Source: Bacteriovorax sp.
Lineage (GTDB): Bacteria; Bdellovibrionota; Bacteriovoracia; Bacteriovoracales; Bacteriovoracaceae
Assembly: GCA_014377485.1 (NCBI GenBank)
Contig: JACMPM010000069.1
Span: 1 to 57,120 of the forward strand
Reading direction: 5' to 3'
Length of the DNA: 57,120 nt
Below are positions 27,570 through 38,582 of this stretch, piece after piece. Below the pieces are notes generated by a model. That model saw only the letters and a list, made by a program, of their open reading frames with translations, was not told the origin of the DNA and searched no databases. The translations under genes and the position numbers were made by a program. Numbering within the stretch: the first letter of the stretch is position 1; every line of letters begins with the position of its first letter.

Positions 27570-28838
27570 CTAAACTGGAGAGCTTAAATCAACGTTACCA
27601 ATTGATCGCTCAGAGTTCGTTTTAACTTCCATATGGAAACGGATTTTAGCAAGCGGGTTAAATGTATAACCATCTTTTCCGCGAATAATATATTTTCTCT
27701 TAGAATCTGAATCAGTCGGTTCAATCAATTTTCTCAAACGACTTACGCTCGTATAAATAAGTTTGTCGTGGATTAAAGGATTGTATTCATCTTTCCAGAT
27801 CATTTTCGCCAATTGTTCTTTATCAAAATAAGTACCGGAGTTTTTCGACAATAAGAAAAGAATTTCAAGAAGAACAAAACGGTGTTTAAAATCGATTGTT
27901 CCAAGAGATCTTTCAACAATTTTTCTATTAGTGCGGTCTAGGTATAAATCAACAGTACTATCATTAACATCATCAATTTCAGCTTCAATAAGGTGATTTA
28001 AACGCTTGAAGACTGCAACATCAATAGATTCTTGAGCGAGGTGGAACATATTAAGAGCTTCATCAAAGTTTCCTGCTTTTTTAAGAGCAGTCGCTTTACC
28101 AAATAGAATATACCCATATAGGTTCCAGCATTTTTTACTTTGAAGATATTCATTGGCAAGCTTGTAGTAGTTAAGCGCTTTTTCATTTTCATTGAGCTCA
28201 ATAAAAATCTTTGCGTAATAATTATACATTGCACCTGAAAGGTAGAATTTTTTTATGATTTTTAAAAGATCGTTGAGTTGGTCTAAGTAACGAAGTGATA
28301 AATCAAAATCTTTTCTGTAAAAAGCATTAGTTGCAAGAGAGAGAAGACATTTTGAAAGTAGTTCTGGTTCGTTTTCTTCTGTCGATTTTTTGTAAGCTAA
28401 TTCAAAATTAGATTTTGCCGCTTCAAAATTACCACCGTAATTTTTTACAACACCCAGGTTATAGAAAAATTCAGATGTAAGAGTTGGAAGAGCCCTACTG
28501 AGAGCGTCCATTAATTTTTCACTTTCAAGAATGTATTTTTGAGCTTTTGTATCTTCTAATTTTTCAGAAGCTAATCGAATTAAAAATCCGTATGTTTTGA
28601 GAATTGAAAATCCATCTCTTATAGGTTCTGCAAATGATAAAGCTTTTACGAAAGCTTCTTCTGCTTTATCTAAATCCGCCTTATCGTAATACACTTTTCC
28701 CAACTGATAATACGACCTACCGATGTCAGAACTAGTTATTGCAAGATCTTCTTTTTTTGTATCATCTTGAAATAGTCCAAGTGCTGGATGACCTTCAGAA
28801 AGTGTTTCTGAACCGCCAAAATCTAGAGTCGTAACCAT
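27570..28838 (-). CDS. TPR protein with C-terminal winged-helix DNA-binding domain
   Basis: The 422-residue product carries repeated 34-residue TPR helices from about residue 40 to 280 (for example DIGRSYYQLGKVYYDKADLDKAEEAFVKAL, split here as helix pairs). It ends in an OmpR/PhoB-type winged helix at about 305-395: FKHRFVLLEILFLLSK, FDKEQLAKMIWKDEY, YTSVSRLRKLIEP, YIIRGKDGYTFNP. This order (TPR first, wHTH last) is unusual; SARP and AfsR types have the wHTH first. It is probably a transcription regulator controlled by protein contacts. GGGAGA five bases before the ATG supports the start. Regulated genes are unknown; thrS is divergent. Confidence 0.75.
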   Translation of the reverse strand: MVTTLDFGGSETLSEGHPALGLFQDDTKKEDLAITSSDIGRSYYQLGKVYYDKADLDKAEEAFVKALSFAEPIRDGFSILKTYGFLIRLASEKLEDTKAQKYILESEKLMDALSRALPTLTSEFFYNLGVVKNYGGNFEAAKSNFELAYKKSTEENEPELLSKCLLSLATNAFYRKDFDLSLRYLDQLNDLLKIIKKFYLSGAMYNYYAKIFIELNENEKALNYYKLANEYLQSKKCWNLYGYILFGKATALKKAGNFDEALNMFHLAQESIDVAVFKRLNHLIEAEIDDVNDSTVDLYLDRTNRKIVERSLGTIDFKHRFVLLEILFLLSKNSGTYFDKEQLAKMIWKDEYNPLIHDKLIYTSVSRLRKLIEPTDSDSKRKYIIRGKDGYTFNPLAKIRFHMEVKTNSERSIGNVDLSSPV

Positions 28839-30786: not shown

Positions 30787-30798
30787 TAAAATTTACAT

Positions 30799-30822
30799 CT
30801 TGGGGTTGATGATGACCCCAAG
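30799..30822 (+). terminator. Weak terminator between thrS and ddl
   Basis: CTTGGGGT (30799-30806) and ACCCCAAG (30815-30822) form an 8-bp stem with an 8-base loop, 12 bases past the thrS stop. The T-run after it is short (AAGTTTTC), so some read-through into ddl is likely. Confidence 0.6.
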
Positions 30823-30847
30823 AAGTTTTCATCCAAAGGATTGGTCC

Positions 30848-31843
30848 ATGAAAAAAAATATTCTGCTCCTCTGCGGAGGCGGCGGTTCCGAACACGAAGT
30901 CTCTTTAGTTTCTTCAAAATATATTGAAAAAAATCTTAATGATATTGGACTTTATAACGTCATCAAAGTTGAAATTGGAAAAGATAATATCTTTCGCAAA
31001 TTAAGCAGTGATAATGTTCAGGGCGAAGTTGTTGAAATGAATTTTAAGCGCCAATTAGTTGGCTCTGAAACTGAAGACATACATATTGTCGTTCCCTGTA
31101 TACATGGTCCTCCCGGTGAAACAGGTGAAATTCAAACCTTCTTTGAATTAATTGATCTTCCTTATATCGGATGCGGACCTGAGGCCAGTATCAATTGCTT
31201 TAACAAAGTTACAAGTAAACTGTGGTTTAACGCTCTTGAAATTCCCAATACGCCTTTTGAATTTCTTGCAAGTATGGAAGATAAAAAACGTGCCCACGAC
31301 TTGTTTGATCGTTTTGGAAAAGTTTTTGTAAAAGCAGCTTCACAAGGCTCAAGTATAGGATGTTATCAGATCTTTAAAAAAGATGAACTCGATGATGCTC
31401 TTTTGAAAGCATTTAAATATTCTAGCTATGTTCTGGTTGAAAAAATGGTTGATGCCAGAGAGCTTGAAATTTCTACTTATGAATTCGAAGGGTCTATATA
31501 CGCGACTATACCAGGTGAGATTAATTGCCCAAGTAAGTTTTATTCATACGAAGAAAAATACGATCCAAACAGTAAAACTTCTACCGAGATTGTAGCGCCC
31601 AATTTACCTAAAGAAGCAGTAGAAAAGATGAGAAGCCATGCCATTAAAGCATTTACTCATTTAAAACTTCGCCACTTATCACGAATTGATTTTTTCTATA
31701 CCGTTGAAGGGGAAATATTCTTAAACGAGATCAATACATTTCCAGGCATGACCCCTATATCGATGTTTCCAAAAATGATGGAAAATAACGGGCATTCATT
31801 TAATAAGTTTTTTAAAGAAATTATCGCTAAAAACATTTTATAA
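30848..31843 (+). CDS. ddl: D-alanine--D-alanine ligase family ATP-grasp enzyme
   Basis: The 331-residue product joins two D-alanines for peptidoglycan in known relatives. GGGGSEHEVSLVS holds the first-substrate Glu, CIHGPPGETGEIQ is typical, and the flexible-loop Ser is in KAASQGSSIGC. FYSYEEKY resembles the Tyr loop of Ddl, and FLNEINTFPGMTPISMFP the metal-binding end. AAAGGA precedes the ATG at 30848 and decides the start over an upstream in-frame GTG/ATG series. Only 22 bases separate it from the aminotransferase fusion gene, so it may be co-transcribed with an amino-acid pathway. A different amino-acid ligase activity cannot be excluded. Confidence 0.88.
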   Translation: MKKNILLLCGGGGSEHEVSLVSSKYIEKNLNDIGLYNVIKVEIGKDNIFRKLSSDNVQGEVVEMNFKRQLVGSETEDIHIVVPCIHGPPGETGEIQTFFELIDLPYIGCGPEASINCFNKVTSKLWFNALEIPNTPFEFLASMEDKKRAHDLFDRFGKVFVKAASQGSSIGCYQIFKKDELDDALLKAFKYSSYVLVEKMVDARELEISTYEFEGSIYATIPGEINCPSKFYSYEEKYDPNSKTSTEIVAPNLPKEAVEKMRSHAIKAFTHLKLRHLSRIDFFYTVEGEIFLNEINTFPGMTPISMFPKMMENNGHSFNKFFKEIIAKNIL

Positions 31844-31865: not shown

Positions 31866-34800
31866 ATGTTACTACCAATTATAAACACTGAAGACGCAAA
31901 CCACGGTTCTGAAATTTTAAAGCATTTTTATGCCAATAAAATGATACCCGCAGAAAAGAAAACTTATATGACCAAACTCAAGGACTCTCTTGGTCCTTAT
32001 ATGGGAATAGAAAGCAGCGATGGCAGCACCCATTATCTTTTGGATGCAGCTTCGCAAATTGCAACTTTGGGACACGGATTTAACCCATCTGTCTTTTTTG
32101 GTACAACTGAATTCTTAGAATCCTGGATGAACGATGCCACGACCAAAGAATTTAAAGATATGCGTTTAGCCTTTCAAAATTTTTTCAACCGCAAATTAAA
32201 CTGGAATAAAACATCTATCACTATGGTTCACTCTGGTGCAGAAGCTAATGAAACTGCGTTAGGTTATTGTTATCGATCCAGAGTTAATATTGGGGCCAAT
32301 AAAGTTCTCGCTTTTGAAGGATCTTTTCACGGTCGTATGATGATTACTTTGGCGGCCACATGGAATAAATCGAAGCGAGAACCATTTGAATGGAAAAACT
32401 ATCTCGCTGAGTACGTAAAATACCCTGAGCTAAATGACGGACAAATAAATGTTAGTTTTCCAGATAAATGGAGAGAGACATGGAATGAAGCTTCGCTTAA
32501 AGATTTTAAAACTCCTGAGAGTTGGTCTAGTGACCCAATGATCACAAAAGAGGTGGAATCACTTCTTAGTGTTCGCAAGCAGCTACTTACTAAAAAAATC
32601 TTTTCAATTTTAATCGAGCCAATGCAATGTGAAGGCGGAGATTGTTATTCTTCTGACCGATTTCATACTGGTTTATTATTAATGGCAAAAACTTTCAAAG
32701 TTCCAGTGATTTACGATGAAGTTCAAACAGGCTTTCATTTAGGTAAAGAATTTTTCTGGCATCGCCAATTCAATCTACGAGGCATTAAAGGTCAACAGCT
32801 TAATCCAGACTATGTTATTTGTGCAAAAAAGGCCCAAATAGGAATTGTCTTAAGCCATCGTGAAACTAAAAATATTTTTAAAGGTGAGGAGTTCTCTGTT
32901 GCTTCAGCTTTCCGTGGCTATGCACATGCAATTAGCCTCGACCAGTGCCAGTCTCGCATTATTGAGTTAGAAAAGATTGTCATTCCAAAATTAAATGCTC
33001 TGCTAAAAAAGCATGATAAATTTATTTCACGTCCGCGTGTTAACGGTCTAGCATTTGCTTTTGACTTACATGACCCTGCTATGCTCAATAAGTTTGTCGA
33101 TATTCGTTTTAAACACGGGCTCCTCTACTACCCAGCGGGAAGCCAGACTCTTCGCTTTAGATTAAATCTCGCTTTTGGCGAAAAGGACTTAAACTTTTTA
33201 TTTGAAAGATTAGATTTTATTTGCCGTGAACTATTCTTAAACGAAGTTCACCCAATACCAACTCATGTGGAAACTGATTGTATTGATTCTAATGAATCTT
33301 ATGAATGGCATGAATTGCTGATTACCACTAAACTTGAAAAACTTTTGGGTAAAAAAATTAACAGTAAGCAAGTTTTTGAAAAAATCGAAAAACTAATTAC
33401 CAGTAAAACAGCTACTCAATTAATAGAAATTACTGCCGATAATTTTTTAACTTATCGCCAGGACATAATCAATTTAGAGAGAAAAGTTTATGAACCGGCC
33501 AGACAGACCGATATCGAAAAATTTGAACACACGGTTCTTAATCGCAATTCATTATGCTTAGGAATTATCAACAATAGCGATAAAAAATTAATGGGTATTG
33601 CTTTTGCTGGTCCATTAAAACTTTATCCGCTTGAGCGCGGCGTTCGCATGGATCCTAATTTTCATGAAGAAGATTCTCTCTATATGCTGGATGTAACTGT
33701 CGATCCAGCACTTCAAGGAGAAGGCTTAGGCAGAGGTTTAAAATACGCTCTTTCGGCCATGGCCCTCACTAAAGGAATTAAGCGAATCCAAGGACGCAAT
33801 CGCGACCGACTGGCTGCTGCTATGATCAATATTAATATGTCGTTGGGGGCAATCGAACAGGAATATATCCATGAAGATTATCCTGATTTTGAAACTCATC
33901 GAGATGTTTTTTATTATACAACCAAGGCCGAATGGAAAAAACCAAATATTCATTTGTCCCGGGCGATATCGATTCCACTTTCGGTGAGAAGTTTAAGCAA
34001 AGAATATTTTGACCATCAAATGCCTTTTGCTGTTAATAAAGTTTGTCTTTCAAATTTTGTCAGCGAAACATTCTTAAAAGGAATTAAAGAAGTTATTAAT
34101 CTTCTCCCTGAAAATCTTCGTCATGGTTACACTTGCTCCGGCCAATCTGAGTGCGTGGATAAAGTTGCAAAAACTATCTGGGTGAAGTCCCGTCCTGAAA
34201 TTAAAGAGAATCACATTACGAAAATGATGACTTTCAAAAATCATTATTTTGGTAATGGTTCTGCCTTGTCTCGATCCTTAAGCCTGGATGTTGAACCTTA
34301 TTTTGAAGTGACGAAACTTCCAAATGCCAATGAAATTAACTACCAAAAAGTTTTAGCCGTTGTGGAAAGTGAATTCAAACTAGGAACTTATCTGGCCGTT
34401 TGGGTAGAACCTCTTCTGCAAAAAACCATGGAAAAAATGCCTTACGAATTTTTGCGTGGATTACGCAACCTTGCCACCAAATATAAAGTTGCTCTGGTTT
34501 ATAATGAAACAGCTTCGCAGTTTTTTCGTTTCTCGGAGAAAAACTTTTTCGCTTCGAGCTTTAGTGATATCACGCCAGATGCTGGCCTTGTTTATTTTTC
34601 CGGTCAAGCTGGAATGGCCTTTGCCAGTGATGCCTATTATCTAGAGCAACCATTAATGATGATTAGTACCTGGGATGGAGATGAATTCTCTTTTAATACT
34701 TATTACCATTCATTTAAAGATGTCATTAAAAACCAAGATGATTATAAAAAAACCGCTAAACTTTTCCATCAAAAGTTAATTGATAATCTTTCTCTTTATG

Positions 34801-34946
34801 AAATTGATGTTATGAAAATTGAAAATGGTTTTGGATTCTTTATAGGCTCTATTCCGGCGTCGTTGAGCGAAATGTTTATCCATAATGGGGAACGCTACAC
34901 AGTGTGTCCTTCGTACGATTCGATGAAGGAGTATTTAAACTCATGA
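31866..34946 (+). CDS. Aminotransferase (Lat/GABA-AT type) - GNAT - pseudo-aminotransferase fusion
   Basis: The 1026-residue product has three parts. Residues 1 to about 470 form a class III PLP aminotransferase close to lysine 6-aminotransferase and GABA-AT: FEGSFHGRMMITLAA, IEPMQCEGGDCYSSDRF, IYDEVQTGFHLGK, and the PLP Lys at about 322 in CAKKAQIGIVLS. About 520-690 is a GNAT domain (LDVTVDPALQGEGLGRGLKY, NINMSLGA). About 700-1026 again has class III layout (NHYFGNGSALSRSLS, AVWVEPLLQKTME, ALVYNETASQFFRF) but the PLP Lys is Q914 in YFSGQAGMAF and the Asp is Asn, so it should be inactive. The end overlaps the next gene as ATGA. Confidence 0.88.
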   Translation: MLLPIINTEDANHGSEILKHFYANKMIPAEKKTYMTKLKDSLGPYMGIESSDGSTHYLLDAASQIATLGHGFNPSVFFGTTEFLESWMNDATTKEFKDMRLAFQNFFNRKLNWNKTSITMVHSGAEANETALGYCYRSRVNIGANKVLAFEGSFHGRMMITLAATWNKSKREPFEWKNYLAEYVKYPELNDGQINVSFPDKWRETWNEASLKDFKTPESWSSDPMITKEVESLLSVRKQLLTKKIFSILIEPMQCEGGDCYSSDRFHTGLLLMAKTFKVPVIYDEVQTGFHLGKEFFWHRQFNLRGIKGQQLNPDYVICAKKAQIGIVLSHRETKNIFKGEEFSVASAFRGYAHAISLDQCQSRIIELEKIVIPKLNALLKKHDKFISRPRVNGLAFAFDLHDPAMLNKFVDIRFKHGLLYYPAGSQTLRFRLNLAFGEKDLNFLFERLDFICRELFLNEVHPIPTHVETDCIDSNESYEWHELLITTKLEKLLGKKINSKQVFEKIEKLITSKTATQLIEITADNFLTYRQDIINLERKVYEPARQTDIEKFEHTVLNRNSLCLGIINNSDKKLMGIAFAGPLKLYPLERGVRMDPNFHEEDSLYMLDVTVDPALQGEGLGRGLKYALSAMALTKGIKRIQGRNRDRLAAAMININMSLGAIEQEYIHEDYPDFETHRDVFYYTTKAEWKKPNIHLSRAISIPLSVRSLSKEYFDHQMPFAVNKVCLSNFVSETFLKGIKEVINLLPENLRHGYTCSGQSECVDKVAKTIWVKSRPEIKENHITKMMTFKNHYFGNGSALSRSLSLDVEPYFEVTKLPNANEINYQKVLAVVESEFKLGTYLAVWVEPLLQKTMEKMPYEFLRGLRNLATKYKVALVYNETASQFFRFSEKNFFASSFSDITPDAGLVYFSGQAGMAFASDAYYLEQPLMMISTWDGDEFSFNTYYHSFKDVIKNQDDYKKTAKLFHQKLIDNLSLYEIDVMKIENGFGFFIGSIPASLSEMFIHNGERYTVCPSYDSMKEYLNS

Positions 34947-36040
34947 GTACAAATTGCCAATTCCCTTATATTAAATACCAAACAGGAAAAACTTCAAAAG
35001 AATGGGGATTTTCTCATGGCGAAGAATTTAGAACGGCCATTGCAGAATTGGCCGAAATTCGTCGTGGCTTGATGCTTGCCAAAAACCCTGCTCTTTCTAG
35101 AAAATTAGATGTCCTTGCATTAGAGCAATTAGAGCTTTCGCGTACGTTTGCTCCACATCTAGCACTTGAGATTGAAGGAATCGCAGCAGGTGCTAATCTT
35201 ACGTTAACAGATTTAGTGATCCTAAATAACTATACTGATTTTCGTGATATTAGTTTGCCAGAGGAAGGTTGCTCCACTGTTCATATCCAGACTCCAACTG
35301 AAATTCTCTCGGGTCAAACTTGGGACATGCACCGATCAGCTAAAAACTACATGTGTCTCATTCACGTTCCTCAGACTCAAACGCATACTGCTCAGTTAGT
35401 TTTGACATTAGTAGGATGTGTGGGACTTATGGGTGTTAATACTGACAATGGATTGATTGGAGTGAATAATATAAACACTACAAACGCCAAAACCGGCCTT
35501 ATCTGGCCTGTTCTTGTTCGAAAAACTTTAGAGGCTAAAAACCTTGGGGAGATGCGCACCATCCTTCTCAATGCCCCAGTGACATCGGGACATAATTATC
35601 TAATTAGTACTCCTGAAGGCGGCGAGCACCTAGAAATTACTCCCTCTGTTTCAGAAAAAGTTTCCGCTTTAAATCAAGGCCAGGTTGGTGGAATTTTTCA
35701 TACTAATCATTGTTTGGGTTTTGAAATTGAAAAATTGGAAGATAAAAAATCAATGAGTTCGACAACATTTAATAGATACAAACTACTCTCCAAAAAAACT
35801 CATAAGGTAACAGACCTAATCGACTTTAAAAATCTTCTTACCGATCACGATGATTTTCCTAAATCTATTTGTTCTCACTTTGAAAATGGAGCGCAAGATC
35901 CTTCTTTTACTTGTGGTGGTGGTGTGAGTAATTTAAAAACGGGAACTCATATTTTCTGGCGTGGTTGTCCGGCACATGACAGTGATTATAAAGAATATGA
36001 ATTTTTACTCGATGGACTTGATTTTAAAAAGATTAAATAA
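34943..36040 (+). CDS. C45-family Ntn hydrolase (acyl-CoA:6-APA acyltransferase-like)
   Basis: The 365-residue product starts at the ATG of an ATGA overlap, with AAGGAG 11 bases upstream. It belongs to the penicillin acyltransferase family: self-cleavage before a Cys frees the nucleophile, here C110 in LPEEGCSTVHIQT, followed by ILSGQTWDMHRSAKNY and GLMGVNTDNGLIGVNNINTT. Later SGHNYLISTPEGGEHLEIT and FHTNHCLG are family segments. Members hydrolyse or transfer acyl groups on amines. In this unit it may remove an N-acyl group from a pathway intermediate, the step done by YodQ in Bacillus; that is inference from context. Confidence 0.85.
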   Translation: MSTNCQFPYIKYQTGKTSKEWGFSHGEEFRTAIAELAEIRRGLMLAKNPALSRKLDVLALEQLELSRTFAPHLALEIEGIAAGANLTLTDLVILNNYTDFRDISLPEEGCSTVHIQTPTEILSGQTWDMHRSAKNYMCLIHVPQTQTHTAQLVLTLVGCVGLMGVNTDNGLIGVNNINTTNAKTGLIWPVLVRKTLEAKNLGEMRTILLNAPVTSGHNYLISTPEGGEHLEITPSVSEKVSALNQGQVGGIFHTNHCLGFEIEKLEDKKSMSSTTFNRYKLLSKKTHKVTDLIDFKNLLTDHDDFPKSICSHFENGAQDPSFTCGGGVSNLKTGTHIFWRGCPAHDSDYKEYEFLLDGLDFKKIK

Positions 36041-36054
36041 ATAACGAGATCACA

Positions 36055-37239
36055 ATGAAACTTCCTTACTATATTTCCTGGACCAAGCAAAAAGATGCTG
36101 CAAGCTTTGAAATTGCTAGTGTTGATGGTGTTACAATTACGACTACTGATGGACTACGCCTAATTGATATGACTTCAATCAGCTACCAAGCACATTTTGG
36201 TCATAACCATCCTACTATAATTAAGCATATCAAGGAACAGCTAGATACTATTCCTATGAGCTCACCAAAGGGAATTTATCCGCATAAAAATGAAACTACT
36301 TATAAGCTTCTTCAGTATATGAAAAAAGAAGATGGCAAAATTTTTTATACAACAGGCGGAGCAGAGAGTGTTGAGAACGCTCTCAAAATGGCCAGAGATT
36401 TTACTAAGAAAAAAATAGTTCTCGCACGCTCGAACTCTTATCACGGAGCAACTCTTGGTGCTTTATCGGCAACAGGTGACTGGAGAAATCCAGCCCACAT
36501 GACTCCTGAAGGTTGGGTCGTTAGAATCCCGGAGCCCAACGAAAAGGAAGCCCTCAAAAAAACTCGTGAAATTATTTTACAAACCGGTGCTGAAAATATA
36601 GCGGCCATTATTATTGAAACAATTACAGGTGGAAATGGCGTCTATTCAGGGACAAAGGAATGGTGGCAGGGCCTTAAAAAATTATGTGTCGAATTTAATA
36701 TACTTCTAATAATGGACGAAGTTGTTTGTGGTTTTGAGCGAACCGGACTTTCATTCGGATATATGCATTATGATGTTGAACCAGACCTCATTTGTCTTGC
36801 CAAAGGAATTACTGGTGGAATGATTCCATTTGGAGCTGTTTGGACTTCAAAAAAAATTGCTGATTATTACGAAGATAATATTTTGTGCTGTGGCCTGACA
36901 AATTACGCTCATCCGCTAGGCATGGCCGCCATGAGAGGAGTTCTTGAGATAGTTCATGATAAAAAATTTCAAGAAAATTTAAAGCACGTAGAAAATATTT
37001 TTAAAATAGAGCTTGAAAAATTAAAAAGTCTCTCAATTGTTAAAGAAATCAGAGTTCATGGTCTTCTTTGTGCAATTGATCTCAAAAAGACGATTGATGG
37101 AAAGAAATTTTTCCAAAAAGGTATTTATCTTGTGTCCCAAACGAATCGAATTATTCTAGTACCTCCACTCGTCATAACGGAATCCCTTCTAACAGAAGGA
37201 ATGGGCAAGGTCTACGAAGTTCTAGAGGAAAACCTATGA
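36055..37239 (+). CDS. Class III aminotransferase, YodT-like
   Basis: The 394-residue product is a complete PLP-dependent class III aminotransferase: FYTTGGAESVENALKMARDF, NSYHGATLGALSATGDWR, IIIETITGGNGVY, IMDEVVCGFERTG, and the PLP Lys in LICLAKGITGGMIPFGAV. The position next to CoA-transferase subunits and the GNAT-containing fusion is that of YodT in the Bacillus yod cluster. The substrate is not known; an omega-amino or beta-amino acid such as N-acetyl-beta-lysine is likely. The stop overlaps the next start as ATGA. Confidence 0.88.
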   Translation: MKLPYYISWTKQKDAASFEIASVDGVTITTTDGLRLIDMTSISYQAHFGHNHPTIIKHIKEQLDTIPMSSPKGIYPHKNETTYKLLQYMKKEDGKIFYTTGGAESVENALKMARDFTKKKIVLARSNSYHGATLGALSATGDWRNPAHMTPEGWVVRIPEPNEKEALKKTREIILQTGAENIAAIIIETITGGNGVYSGTKEWWQGLKKLCVEFNILLIMDEVVCGFERTGLSFGYMHYDVEPDLICLAKGITGGMIPFGAVWTSKKIADYYEDNILCCGLTNYAHPLGMAAMRGVLEIVHDKKFQENLKHVENIFKIELEKLKSLSIVKEIRVHGLLCAIDLKKTIDGKKFFQKGIYLVSQTNRIILVPPLVITESLLTEGMGKVYEVLEENL

Positions 37240-37940
37240 ACAATAAAAATTCAAAAGTTTTTAAAGATGCAGTAAGTGCTCTTTTCGACTTTCAATCAGG
37301 CATGACACTTATGAGCGGAGGCTTCGGACTCTGCGGTATTGCAGAAAATTGTATCGATGCGCTCGCAAATATGAATGTATCTGACCTGACTGTGATTTCG
37401 AATAATATTGGAAATTCAGGAAGAGGTTTAGTTAAAATCTTGGTTCAAGATAAAATTAAAAAAGCTTATTGCTCTTATGTCGGAGGAAATCCCGATCTAG
37501 AAGTGCGCATGCTTAACAAACAAATAGAAGTTGAACTAGTTCCTCAAGGAACCTTTTCAGAGCGCATTCGTGCAGCTGGAATGGGTATCCGTGCTTTTTA
37601 TACTCCTACCGGTTATGGGACTTTAATAGCCGAAGGCAAAGAAGTTAAAATTTTTGATCGCCCTTGCATTATGGAAACGGCCTTACATGCTGATTTTGCC
37701 ATCATCAAAGCTCAGCGCGGAGACACTTTTGGCAATCTATGGTTTAAAGAAACGGCCAGAAATTTTTCTCCACTGATGGCAATGGCCGCTAAAACTACGA
37801 TTGTTGAAGTAGAAGAACTTGTTGAAGTGGGAGAAATTGATCCGCATGATATTCATCTTCCTGGTTTATTCGTACAACGAATTTTTCTTGGAAAAAATTA
37901 TAAAAATGAAATTGAATTTTTAATTACCGAAAAAGAATAA
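37236..37940 (+). CDS. 3-oxoacid CoA-transferase subunit A
   Basis: The 234-residue product is the alpha subunit of a two-subunit family I CoA-transferase: MSGGFGLCGIAENCIDAL, VISNNIGNSGRGLVKIL, YVGGNPDLEVRML, LVPQGTFSERIRAAGMG and TPTGYGTLIAEGKE. It pairs with the next gene to move CoA between acyl-CoA and 3-oxo acids. It starts by a 4-base overlap with the aminotransferase gene and ends 18 bases before subunit B. It corresponds to YodS/ScoA/AtoD types; the exact substrate is not visible. Confidence 0.92.
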   Translation: MNNKNSKVFKDAVSALFDFQSGMTLMSGGFGLCGIAENCIDALANMNVSDLTVISNNIGNSGRGLVKILVQDKIKKAYCSYVGGNPDLEVRMLNKQIEVELVPQGTFSERIRAAGMGIRAFYTPTGYGTLIAEGKEVKIFDRPCIMETALHADFAIIKAQRGDTFGNLWFKETARNFSPLMAMAAKTTIVEVEELVEVGEIDPHDIHLPGLFVQRIFLGKNYKNEIEFLITEKE

Positions 37941-37958: not shown

Positions 37959-38582
37959 ATGGCCTGGACTAATATTGAAATGGCAGATGAAATTATATTA
38001 TTTTTCAAACCATATTCATCAGTAAATCTTGGAATTGGAATGCCCACTGCAATCGCAGAACGAATTCCACATGAACTCAATATCATGATTCATTCAGAAA
38101 ATGGAGTCCTTGGAGTAAGTGGCAGACCTAAAAAGGATTCTGCCTCACCTACCCTCATCAATGCTGGAAAAGAAACAATAGCTATTAAAAAAGGCGCTAG
38201 TTATTTTGATAGTTCAATGAGTTTTGGAATGATTCGTGGCGGACATATTGATTATTGTGTCCTGGGTGGAATGGAAGTAGATGTATCGAGAAATCTTGCT
38301 AACTGGATGGTTCCTGGTAAAAAAGTTACAGGGATGGGCGGGGCAATGGATCTGGTCAATGGATCCAAACAAGTCATCATTATGATGAATCATTTCTCAA
38401 AGGATGGAGTCTCTAAACTTCTTCCTCAATGCCTTTTGCCTTTTACCGGCCTTGATGTCGTTGATATTGTAGTGACAGAGTTGGGAGTTTTTAAACCTAC
38501 CGGTACCAAATTTGAAATAATAAAACTGGCCCATGGTGTAGCAGTTGAAGATCTAAAAATGGATAAAACTATCCTCAACTAA
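37959..38582 (+). CDS. 3-oxoacid CoA-transferase subunit B
   Basis: The 207-residue product is the beta subunit with the catalytic Glu E47 in IHSENGVLGVSG, after VNLGIGMPTAIAERIP. Later parts are SFGMIRGGHIDYCVLGGMEVD, MVPGKKVTGMGGAMDLVNG and VVTELGVFKP. It forms a covalent glutamyl-CoA intermediate in known relatives. AAGGA before the ATG supports the start. It is the last gene of the unit; no terminator is visible in the 89-base gap before the protease gene. Confidence 0.92.
   Translation: MAWTNIEMADEIILFFKPYSSVNLGIGMPTAIAERIPHELNIMIHSENGVLGVSGRPKKDSASPTLINAGKETIAIKKGASYFDSSMSFGMIRGGHIDYCVLGGMEVDVSRNLANWMVPGKKVTGMGGAMDLVNGSKQVIIMMNHFSKDGVSKLLPQCLLPFTGLDVVDIVVTELGVFKPTGTKFEIIKLAHGVAVEDLKMDKTILN

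Follow-up and report, generated by a model that had tools for sequence, protein, structure and literature searches.

A class III aminotransferase fused to a GNAT acetyltransferase and to a lysine-less aminotransferase copy in Bacteriovorax and other bacteria: a candidate asymmetric pseudodimer

Background

L-lysine epsilon-aminotransferase (Rv3290c, 2CIN) and GABA transaminase (1OHV) are class III aminotransferases that form homodimers, each chain of which carries an Asp, a Lys and a cross-subunit Thr. In class III dimers the phosphate of PLP is held by the Thr of the other subunit, as described for Thr332* of YgjG, a putrescine aminotransferase (PMC4244111). Likewise, T297 of GabT comes from the other subunit, according to a paper that numbers the same family class II (PMC9309667). 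Both 2CIN and 1OHV resemble in fold the two aminotransferase parts of the fusion protein described here (Z about 35 and 29), and share with its live half the Lys, the Asp, the SGAE loop, the FHGR arginine, the EGG glutamate and the RFR arginine. In contrast to these enzymes, the fusion protein has Asp, Lys and Thr split over two unequal halves with a GNAT between them.

In serine palmitoyltransferase (LCB1/LCB2), the PLP Lys is present in one subunit and absent in the homologous partner, and a single site has been proposed (PMC3794620). The fusion protein likewise contains a homologous partner that lacks the PLP Lys, making serine palmitoyltransferase a precedent for how it may work, although serine palmitoyltransferase belongs to another PLP family, consists of separate chains and has no fused acyltransferase. 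The P-protein of glycine decarboxylase contains two homologous PLP-fold halves per chain, one of which binds PLP, but differs from the fusion in reaction and family and in having no GNAT. With respect to gene content, the Bacillus subtilis kamA-yodPQRST operon groups genes for KamA, a GNAT, an aminotransferase and a CoA-transferase; unlike in the fusion, its GNAT and aminotransferase are separate, its deacetylase YodQ is not of the C45 type, and no dead half is present. Furthermore, the arginine succinyltransferase (AST) pathway proceeds by acyl protection, omega-transamination, AstD-type oxidation and deacylation, a likeness that extends to the AstD-like aldehyde dehydrogenase (ALDH) discussed below; the differences are that the fusion GNAT is not AstA, that the substrate is linked to lysine 2,3-aminomutase and that the enzymes are fused. 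A literature search, mostly of freely accessible papers, returned no report of the fusion, of a class III pseudodimer or of the route proposed below. Dead partners of PLP enzymes are known, and a class III aminotransferase of such build is, as far as found, apparently undescribed.

Architecture and distribution of the fusion protein

The window is the whole stretch of 57,120 nucleotides analyzed here, from Bacteriovorax sp. contig JACMPM010000069.1. An open reading frame on its forward strand (31866-34946) encodes one protein of 1026 amino acids, present as a single copy in the genome, in which a live class III aminotransferase, a GNAT and a dead aminotransferase copy are joined in a single chain. 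Comparison of the entire protein with Pfam yielded Aminotran_3 at residues 51-449 (E 9e-37) and GNAT at 544-641. The N-terminal part (residues 1-460; 31866..33245, +) is the region of the Aminotran_3 match, and residues 9-460 of its predicted structure match lysine epsilon-aminotransferase and other class III enzymes with Z about 35. The GNAT acetyltransferase part (residues 461-690; 33246..33935, +) alone exceeds the gathering score of Pfam Acetyltransf_1 and matches solved GNATs by profile comparison (E 3e-4); the acetyl-CoA loop Q-G-x-G-x-G is present at 617-622, here as Q617-G-E-G-L-G, with Gly622 nearly invariant. The C-terminal part (residues 691-1026; 33936..34943, +) is weakly recognized by Pfam, its 336 residues alone matching Aminotran_3 at E 0.0045, while a family profile of 39 homologues reached E 7e-18 against class III aminotransferases of solved structure.

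An AlphaFold model of the full chain, a check proposed in an earlier note on this DNA, was a confident single chain (pLDDT 89.5, pTM 0.90), although pTM alone is no proof of a class III dimer arrangement. Such confidence would be expected if the three parts are well packed in a fixed arrangement. Among the matches listed in a full-chain fold search, only the N-terminal half was represented, and the arrangement between domains is outside the view of such a search.

The fusion is conserved in more than 55 genomes of Bdellovibrionota, Planctomycetota and Myxococcota; the survey across Bdellovibrionota advised in the earlier note thus found a protein not restricted to that phylum. Of 57 relatives searched, the carriers were 22 of the 35 genomes from the window's family, plus two from a distant family; a sample of the phylum contained it in 60 of 368 genomes. 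By named records, the carriers include Bacteriovorax, Halobacteriovorax and relatives (Bdellovibrionota), Pirellulales including the isolate Botrimarina hoheduenensis (Planctomycetota), and Enhygromyxa salina (Myxococcota). The order of aminotransferase, GNAT and dead part is constant across fusion homologues. Intact copies in dozens of independent genomes show that the fusion gene is no assembly artefact. In a distant Bdellovibrionota lineage (L028/L113, L029/L120), an N-terminal extension comprising the first approximately 110 residues precedes the aminotransferase.

Active-site residues of the two aminotransferase parts

The N-terminal half retains the residues expected of a working class III enzyme, as the earlier note had stated for the PLP Lys and the Asp. 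Lys321 (32826..32828, +), the predicted Schiff-base lysine by profile alignment to canonical enzymes, and Asp284 (32715..32717, +), which by alignment would bind the PLP pyridine nitrogen, are each found in 55 of 55 fusion homologues. The neighboring K322 was rejected as the PLP Lys, being Arg in 17 of 54 homologues (Myxococcota), whereas K321 is invariant. His155-Gly156-Arg157, Glu256, Arg430 and Arg432 are likewise present in all 55 aligned fusions, and the S/G-G-A-E loop is kept almost always. The phosphate-binding Thr loop, however, is replaced in the alignment of intact homologues by S347-x-x-R350-G351-Y352 (32904..32921, +). Position 348, the site of the Thr, is Leu, Ala, Phe, Met, Val or Ile across the fusions, with the exception of one sequence with Ser and one with Thr, and is closely followed by the invariant Arg350-Gly351.

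The C-terminal half presents the converse. Its predicted structure (pLDDT 93.2) matched class III aminotransferases over the whole length (Z about 29, rmsd 3.2-3.5), and no Lys occurred within residues 906-916 in the homologues compared. An aminotransferase-like fold and a missing PLP Lys, both claimed in the earlier note, are thereby confirmed; neither a different fold nor a Lys at the correct position was found. The assignment of Gln914 as the residue replacing the Lys was off by three positions and is rejected, as profile alignment to canonical enzymes places Phe911 (34596..34598, +) there, in a column that is never Lys. Gln914 (34605..34607, +; Gln in 51 of 52) aligns instead with Gln324, which is conserved three residues past Lys321 in the live half. 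Asn880 (34503..34505, +) does occupy the position of the PLP-ring Asp by profile alignment, as proposed, but Asn is merely common in this column (29 of 52) and not conserved. In the dead half generally, the ring Asp is usually gone and the SGAE loop is altered.

One loop of the dead half is retained, S934-T935-W936-D937-G938-D939 (34665..34682, +). Ser, Thr and Trp are present in 52 of 52 intact homologues, Gly938 and Asp939 likewise, and the complete STWDGD motif in essentially every sequence. Profile alignment places Thr935 at the canonical class III Thr position. In domain numbering, S244, T245, W246, G248 and D249 account for five of the twelve invariant columns of a part with a mean identity of 33%. 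In the lineage represented by G040, G054 and L119, the chain stops 16-20 residues past the STW loop, the rest of the small domain having been dropped. Asp937 and Asp939, which border the loop, might contact substrate. A recent internal duplication as the origin of the two aminotransferase parts was rejected, as their profiles are only about 16% identical and other class III enzymes give the C-terminal part a better score than the N-terminal part does.

Across three phyla, the live half thus keeps Lys and Asp without the phosphate-binding Thr, and the dead half keeps the Thr without the Lys. As a control, Asp, Lys and Thr were found in one chain in 60 of 60 ordinary class III enzymes, including the second aminotransferase of the operons. 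This reciprocal split, together with the confident full-chain model, lends support to the suggestion of the earlier note that the live site could be made complete by the dead half of the same chain. Judging from residue conservation and the model, the single chain is likely a pseudodimer in which one site is live, and the simplest reading is a division of labor in which one half catalyzes and the other lends a loop. The two aminotransferase parts would form an asymmetric pseudodimer, either inside a single chain or through an exchange of halves by two chains. The N-terminal part would give Lys321, Asp284, the SGAE loop and the substrate arginines to the single working site, while the C-terminal part, a decayed structural partner, would give the Ser-Thr-Trp loop to the PLP phosphate. 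We infer the contact geometry of the Thr935 loop with the PLP of the live half.

Two other accounts of the dead half were considered. Dead enzyme copies frequently become regulatory, and the C-terminal part could be just a folding scaffold, a domain for regulation or effector binding, or a surface on which the neighboring C45 hydrolase or second aminotransferase docks; it would then have no share in the live site, and the N-terminal halves would form an ordinary homodimer. The invariant Asp937, Asp939 and Gln914, which have no assigned role, would fit such a function, but the residues retained in the dead half cluster on precisely the STW loop. Furthermore, an N-N homodimer would be without the Thr at both of its sites, because the live half lacks it in its own chain, and we regard this account as improbable. 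It is far less probable still that a recent, non-functional joining of genes or pseudogenization produced the fusion. A few draft genomes with the fusion frameshifted or split across contigs were all that was found in its favor, and it is contradicted by the conservation of the gene, which dozens of genomes from no fewer than three phyla carry intact and in colinear form, with identities of 30-90%.

Operon organization

The fusion gene is followed on the same strand by a gene for a C45-family (Ntn-type) hydrolase (34943..36040, +; NCBIfam C45_proenzyme, 141 bits against a cut-off of 85), the start of which overlaps the fusion stop in ATGA (34943-34946), and which is immediately 3' of the fusion in nearly all loci. 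Downstream are a second, canonical class III aminotransferase, AT2 (36055..37239, +; Aminotran_3 E 1e-79), with Asp, Lys and Thr all in one chain, and subunits A (37236..37940, +; TIGR02429, 245 bits against 128.5) and B (37959..38582, +; TIGR02428, 253 bits against 243.55) of a 3-oxoacid CoA-transferase. The order fusion, C45, AT2, CoA-transferase A and B is kept in the window's family. In Planctomycetota the operon reads fusion, C45, AT2, CoA-transferase A, KamA, CoA-transferase B and thiolase, and the L085 operon likewise includes KamA; in both, the thiolase was seen where the contig was long enough.

The operon-encoded KamA of Planctomycetota and L085, a lysine 2,3-aminomutase homologue, is 64-67% identical to a KamA encoded elsewhere in the window's genome. 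Within the window's family, this long KamA was detected in all 22 genomes carrying the fusion and in 3 of the 13 lacking it (Fisher p 1.6e-6), or by genus in 10 of 10 versus 2 of 12 (p 1e-4), p-values that are optimistic and counts that are inflated as the genomes are related. Outside the main set, KamA was present in 20 of 25 fusion-bearing genomes; no matching KamA was detected in the other 5 of the 25, some of which are incomplete drafts. The KamA of the window's genome and its relatives has Asp at both sites aligned to D293 and D330 of 2A5H, which we take to be the Asp pair binding the epsilon-amine of lysine. TIGR03820 is its best model at 274.5 bits yet falls under the equivalog cut-off of 525.4, and this KamA therefore represents a divergent subgroup.

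In many Myxococcota, an AstD-like ALDH is fused N-terminally to the three-part protein, resulting in chains of about 1550-1810 amino acids (eleven loci), some of which have an additional region between ALDH and aminotransferase. The fused Myxococcota ALDH scored 301-369 bits against the AstD model, under the equivalog cut-off of 579.3, with AstD the top subfamily by about 60-130 bits. At locus L098, an AstD-like gene is directly 3' of the fusion. In the window's genome, the fusion gene has no ALDH either fused or adjoining, and the best AstD-like gene sits in an arginine (AST) operon. A locus of the same genome (L168, G000:C76) contains an AstA-like gene beside an AstD-like dehydrogenase, beyond the end of an aminotransferase, in an apparent AST operon.

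Predicted metabolism

We consider it fairly probable that the fusion serves lysine catabolism as a bifunctional enzyme, a pseudodimer of one chain or of exchanged halves that acts in a 3-acyl-beta-lysine route. The observations behind this reading are the architecture, the residue split, the conservation, the operon content and the co-occurrence; the substrates and the order of steps are what we infer from them. The sequence points to acylation preceding transamination, with beta-lysine from lysine 2,3-aminomutase as the amine. Lysine 2,3-aminomutase would convert lysine into beta-lysine, the GNAT would acylate the 3-amino group, and the fusion aminotransferase would take off the 6-amino group. 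The resulting semialdehyde would be oxidized to 3-acylaminoadipate by the AstD-like dehydrogenase, part of the same chain in Myxococcota. The C45 hydrolase would then strip the acyl group from 3-acylaminoadipate, AT2 would yield 3-oxoadipate, and CoA-transferase and thiolase would produce succinyl-CoA and acetyl-CoA. On chemical grounds, the acyl cap would be needed because free 3-amino-6-oxohexanoate would be expected to cyclize to a five-membered pyrroline, the same purpose that it serves in arginine biosynthesis and in the AST pathway. The route is consistent with the data in that it employs every gene of the operon, puts the fused activities in sequence and accounts for the AstD-like type of ALDH. 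Speaking against it are the window's genome, where no ALDH is fused to the fusion gene or adjoins it, and the fusion-bearing genomes in which no matching KamA was detected. Putative channelling between acylation and transamination, which the earlier note had read from the fusion in either direction, is compatible with the operon.

The same pseudodimer could instead serve the classical beta-lysine route, which reportedly was worked out in Pseudomonas by Barker and colleagues and passes via N6-acetyl-beta-lysine, here leading on through GABA. The GNAT would produce N6-acetyl-beta-lysine, AT2 would act on the 3-amino group, and CoA-transferase and thiolase would lead to 4-acetamidobutyryl-CoA; the C45 hydrolase would then deacetylate, and the fusion aminotransferase would be a GABA transaminase, followed by a succinate-semialdehyde dehydrogenase (SSADH). 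All of the listed enzymes are accommodated by this route as well, the best PDB sequence matches of the live half are GABA transaminases, and the kamA-yodPQRST operon of B. subtilis is of similar gene content. However, the fused or adjacent ALDH is nearer to AstD (326-407 bits) than to SSADH (192-232 bits), the steps joined in one chain would not be consecutive, and the GNAT gave no match to the AblB model TIGR03827 in NCBIfam at E 0.1, a threshold that a distant relative could escape. The 3-acyl-beta-lysine route also agrees better with gene order, and we regard the classical route as rather unlikely, though it is the main rival. An ectoine-type EctA/EctB fusion was set aside, the neighboring CoA-transferase, thiolase and KamA being catabolic.

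It is possible, though we would stop short of calling it probable, that the new lysine route and the loop-donor pseudodimer both hold, with a Myxococcota polypeptide of at least about 1550 residues uniting three consecutive steps. If the pseudodimer holds, the fusion would be, as far as found, the first class III aminotransferase whose obligate dimer has been remade into one asymmetric chain, and evolution would have visibly partitioned a composite active site between two halves. The split makes class III subunit complementation directly testable by single mutations (K321, T935). Furthermore, the operon would represent an apparently undescribed means of lysine degradation in predatory bacteria, Planctomycetota and Myxococcota, the genes of which are now annotated by superfamily only.

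Genes upstream of the fusion

A D-Ala-D-Ala ligase gene (Ddl; 30800-31843) lies just 5' of the fusion and is the single match in the genome; since there is no other, it is probably an essential housekeeping enzyme. The gene order ThrRS, Ddl, fusion is constant across the family. A terminator-like hairpin of 11 pairs (30798-30823) is located between the genes for ThrRS and Ddl; taken as a whole, sites of this kind show no excess over shuffled sequences. Divergent from ThrRS family-wide is a gene for a TPR protein with a C-terminal winged-helix (Trans_reg_C) domain (27570-28838, -), a possible regulator.
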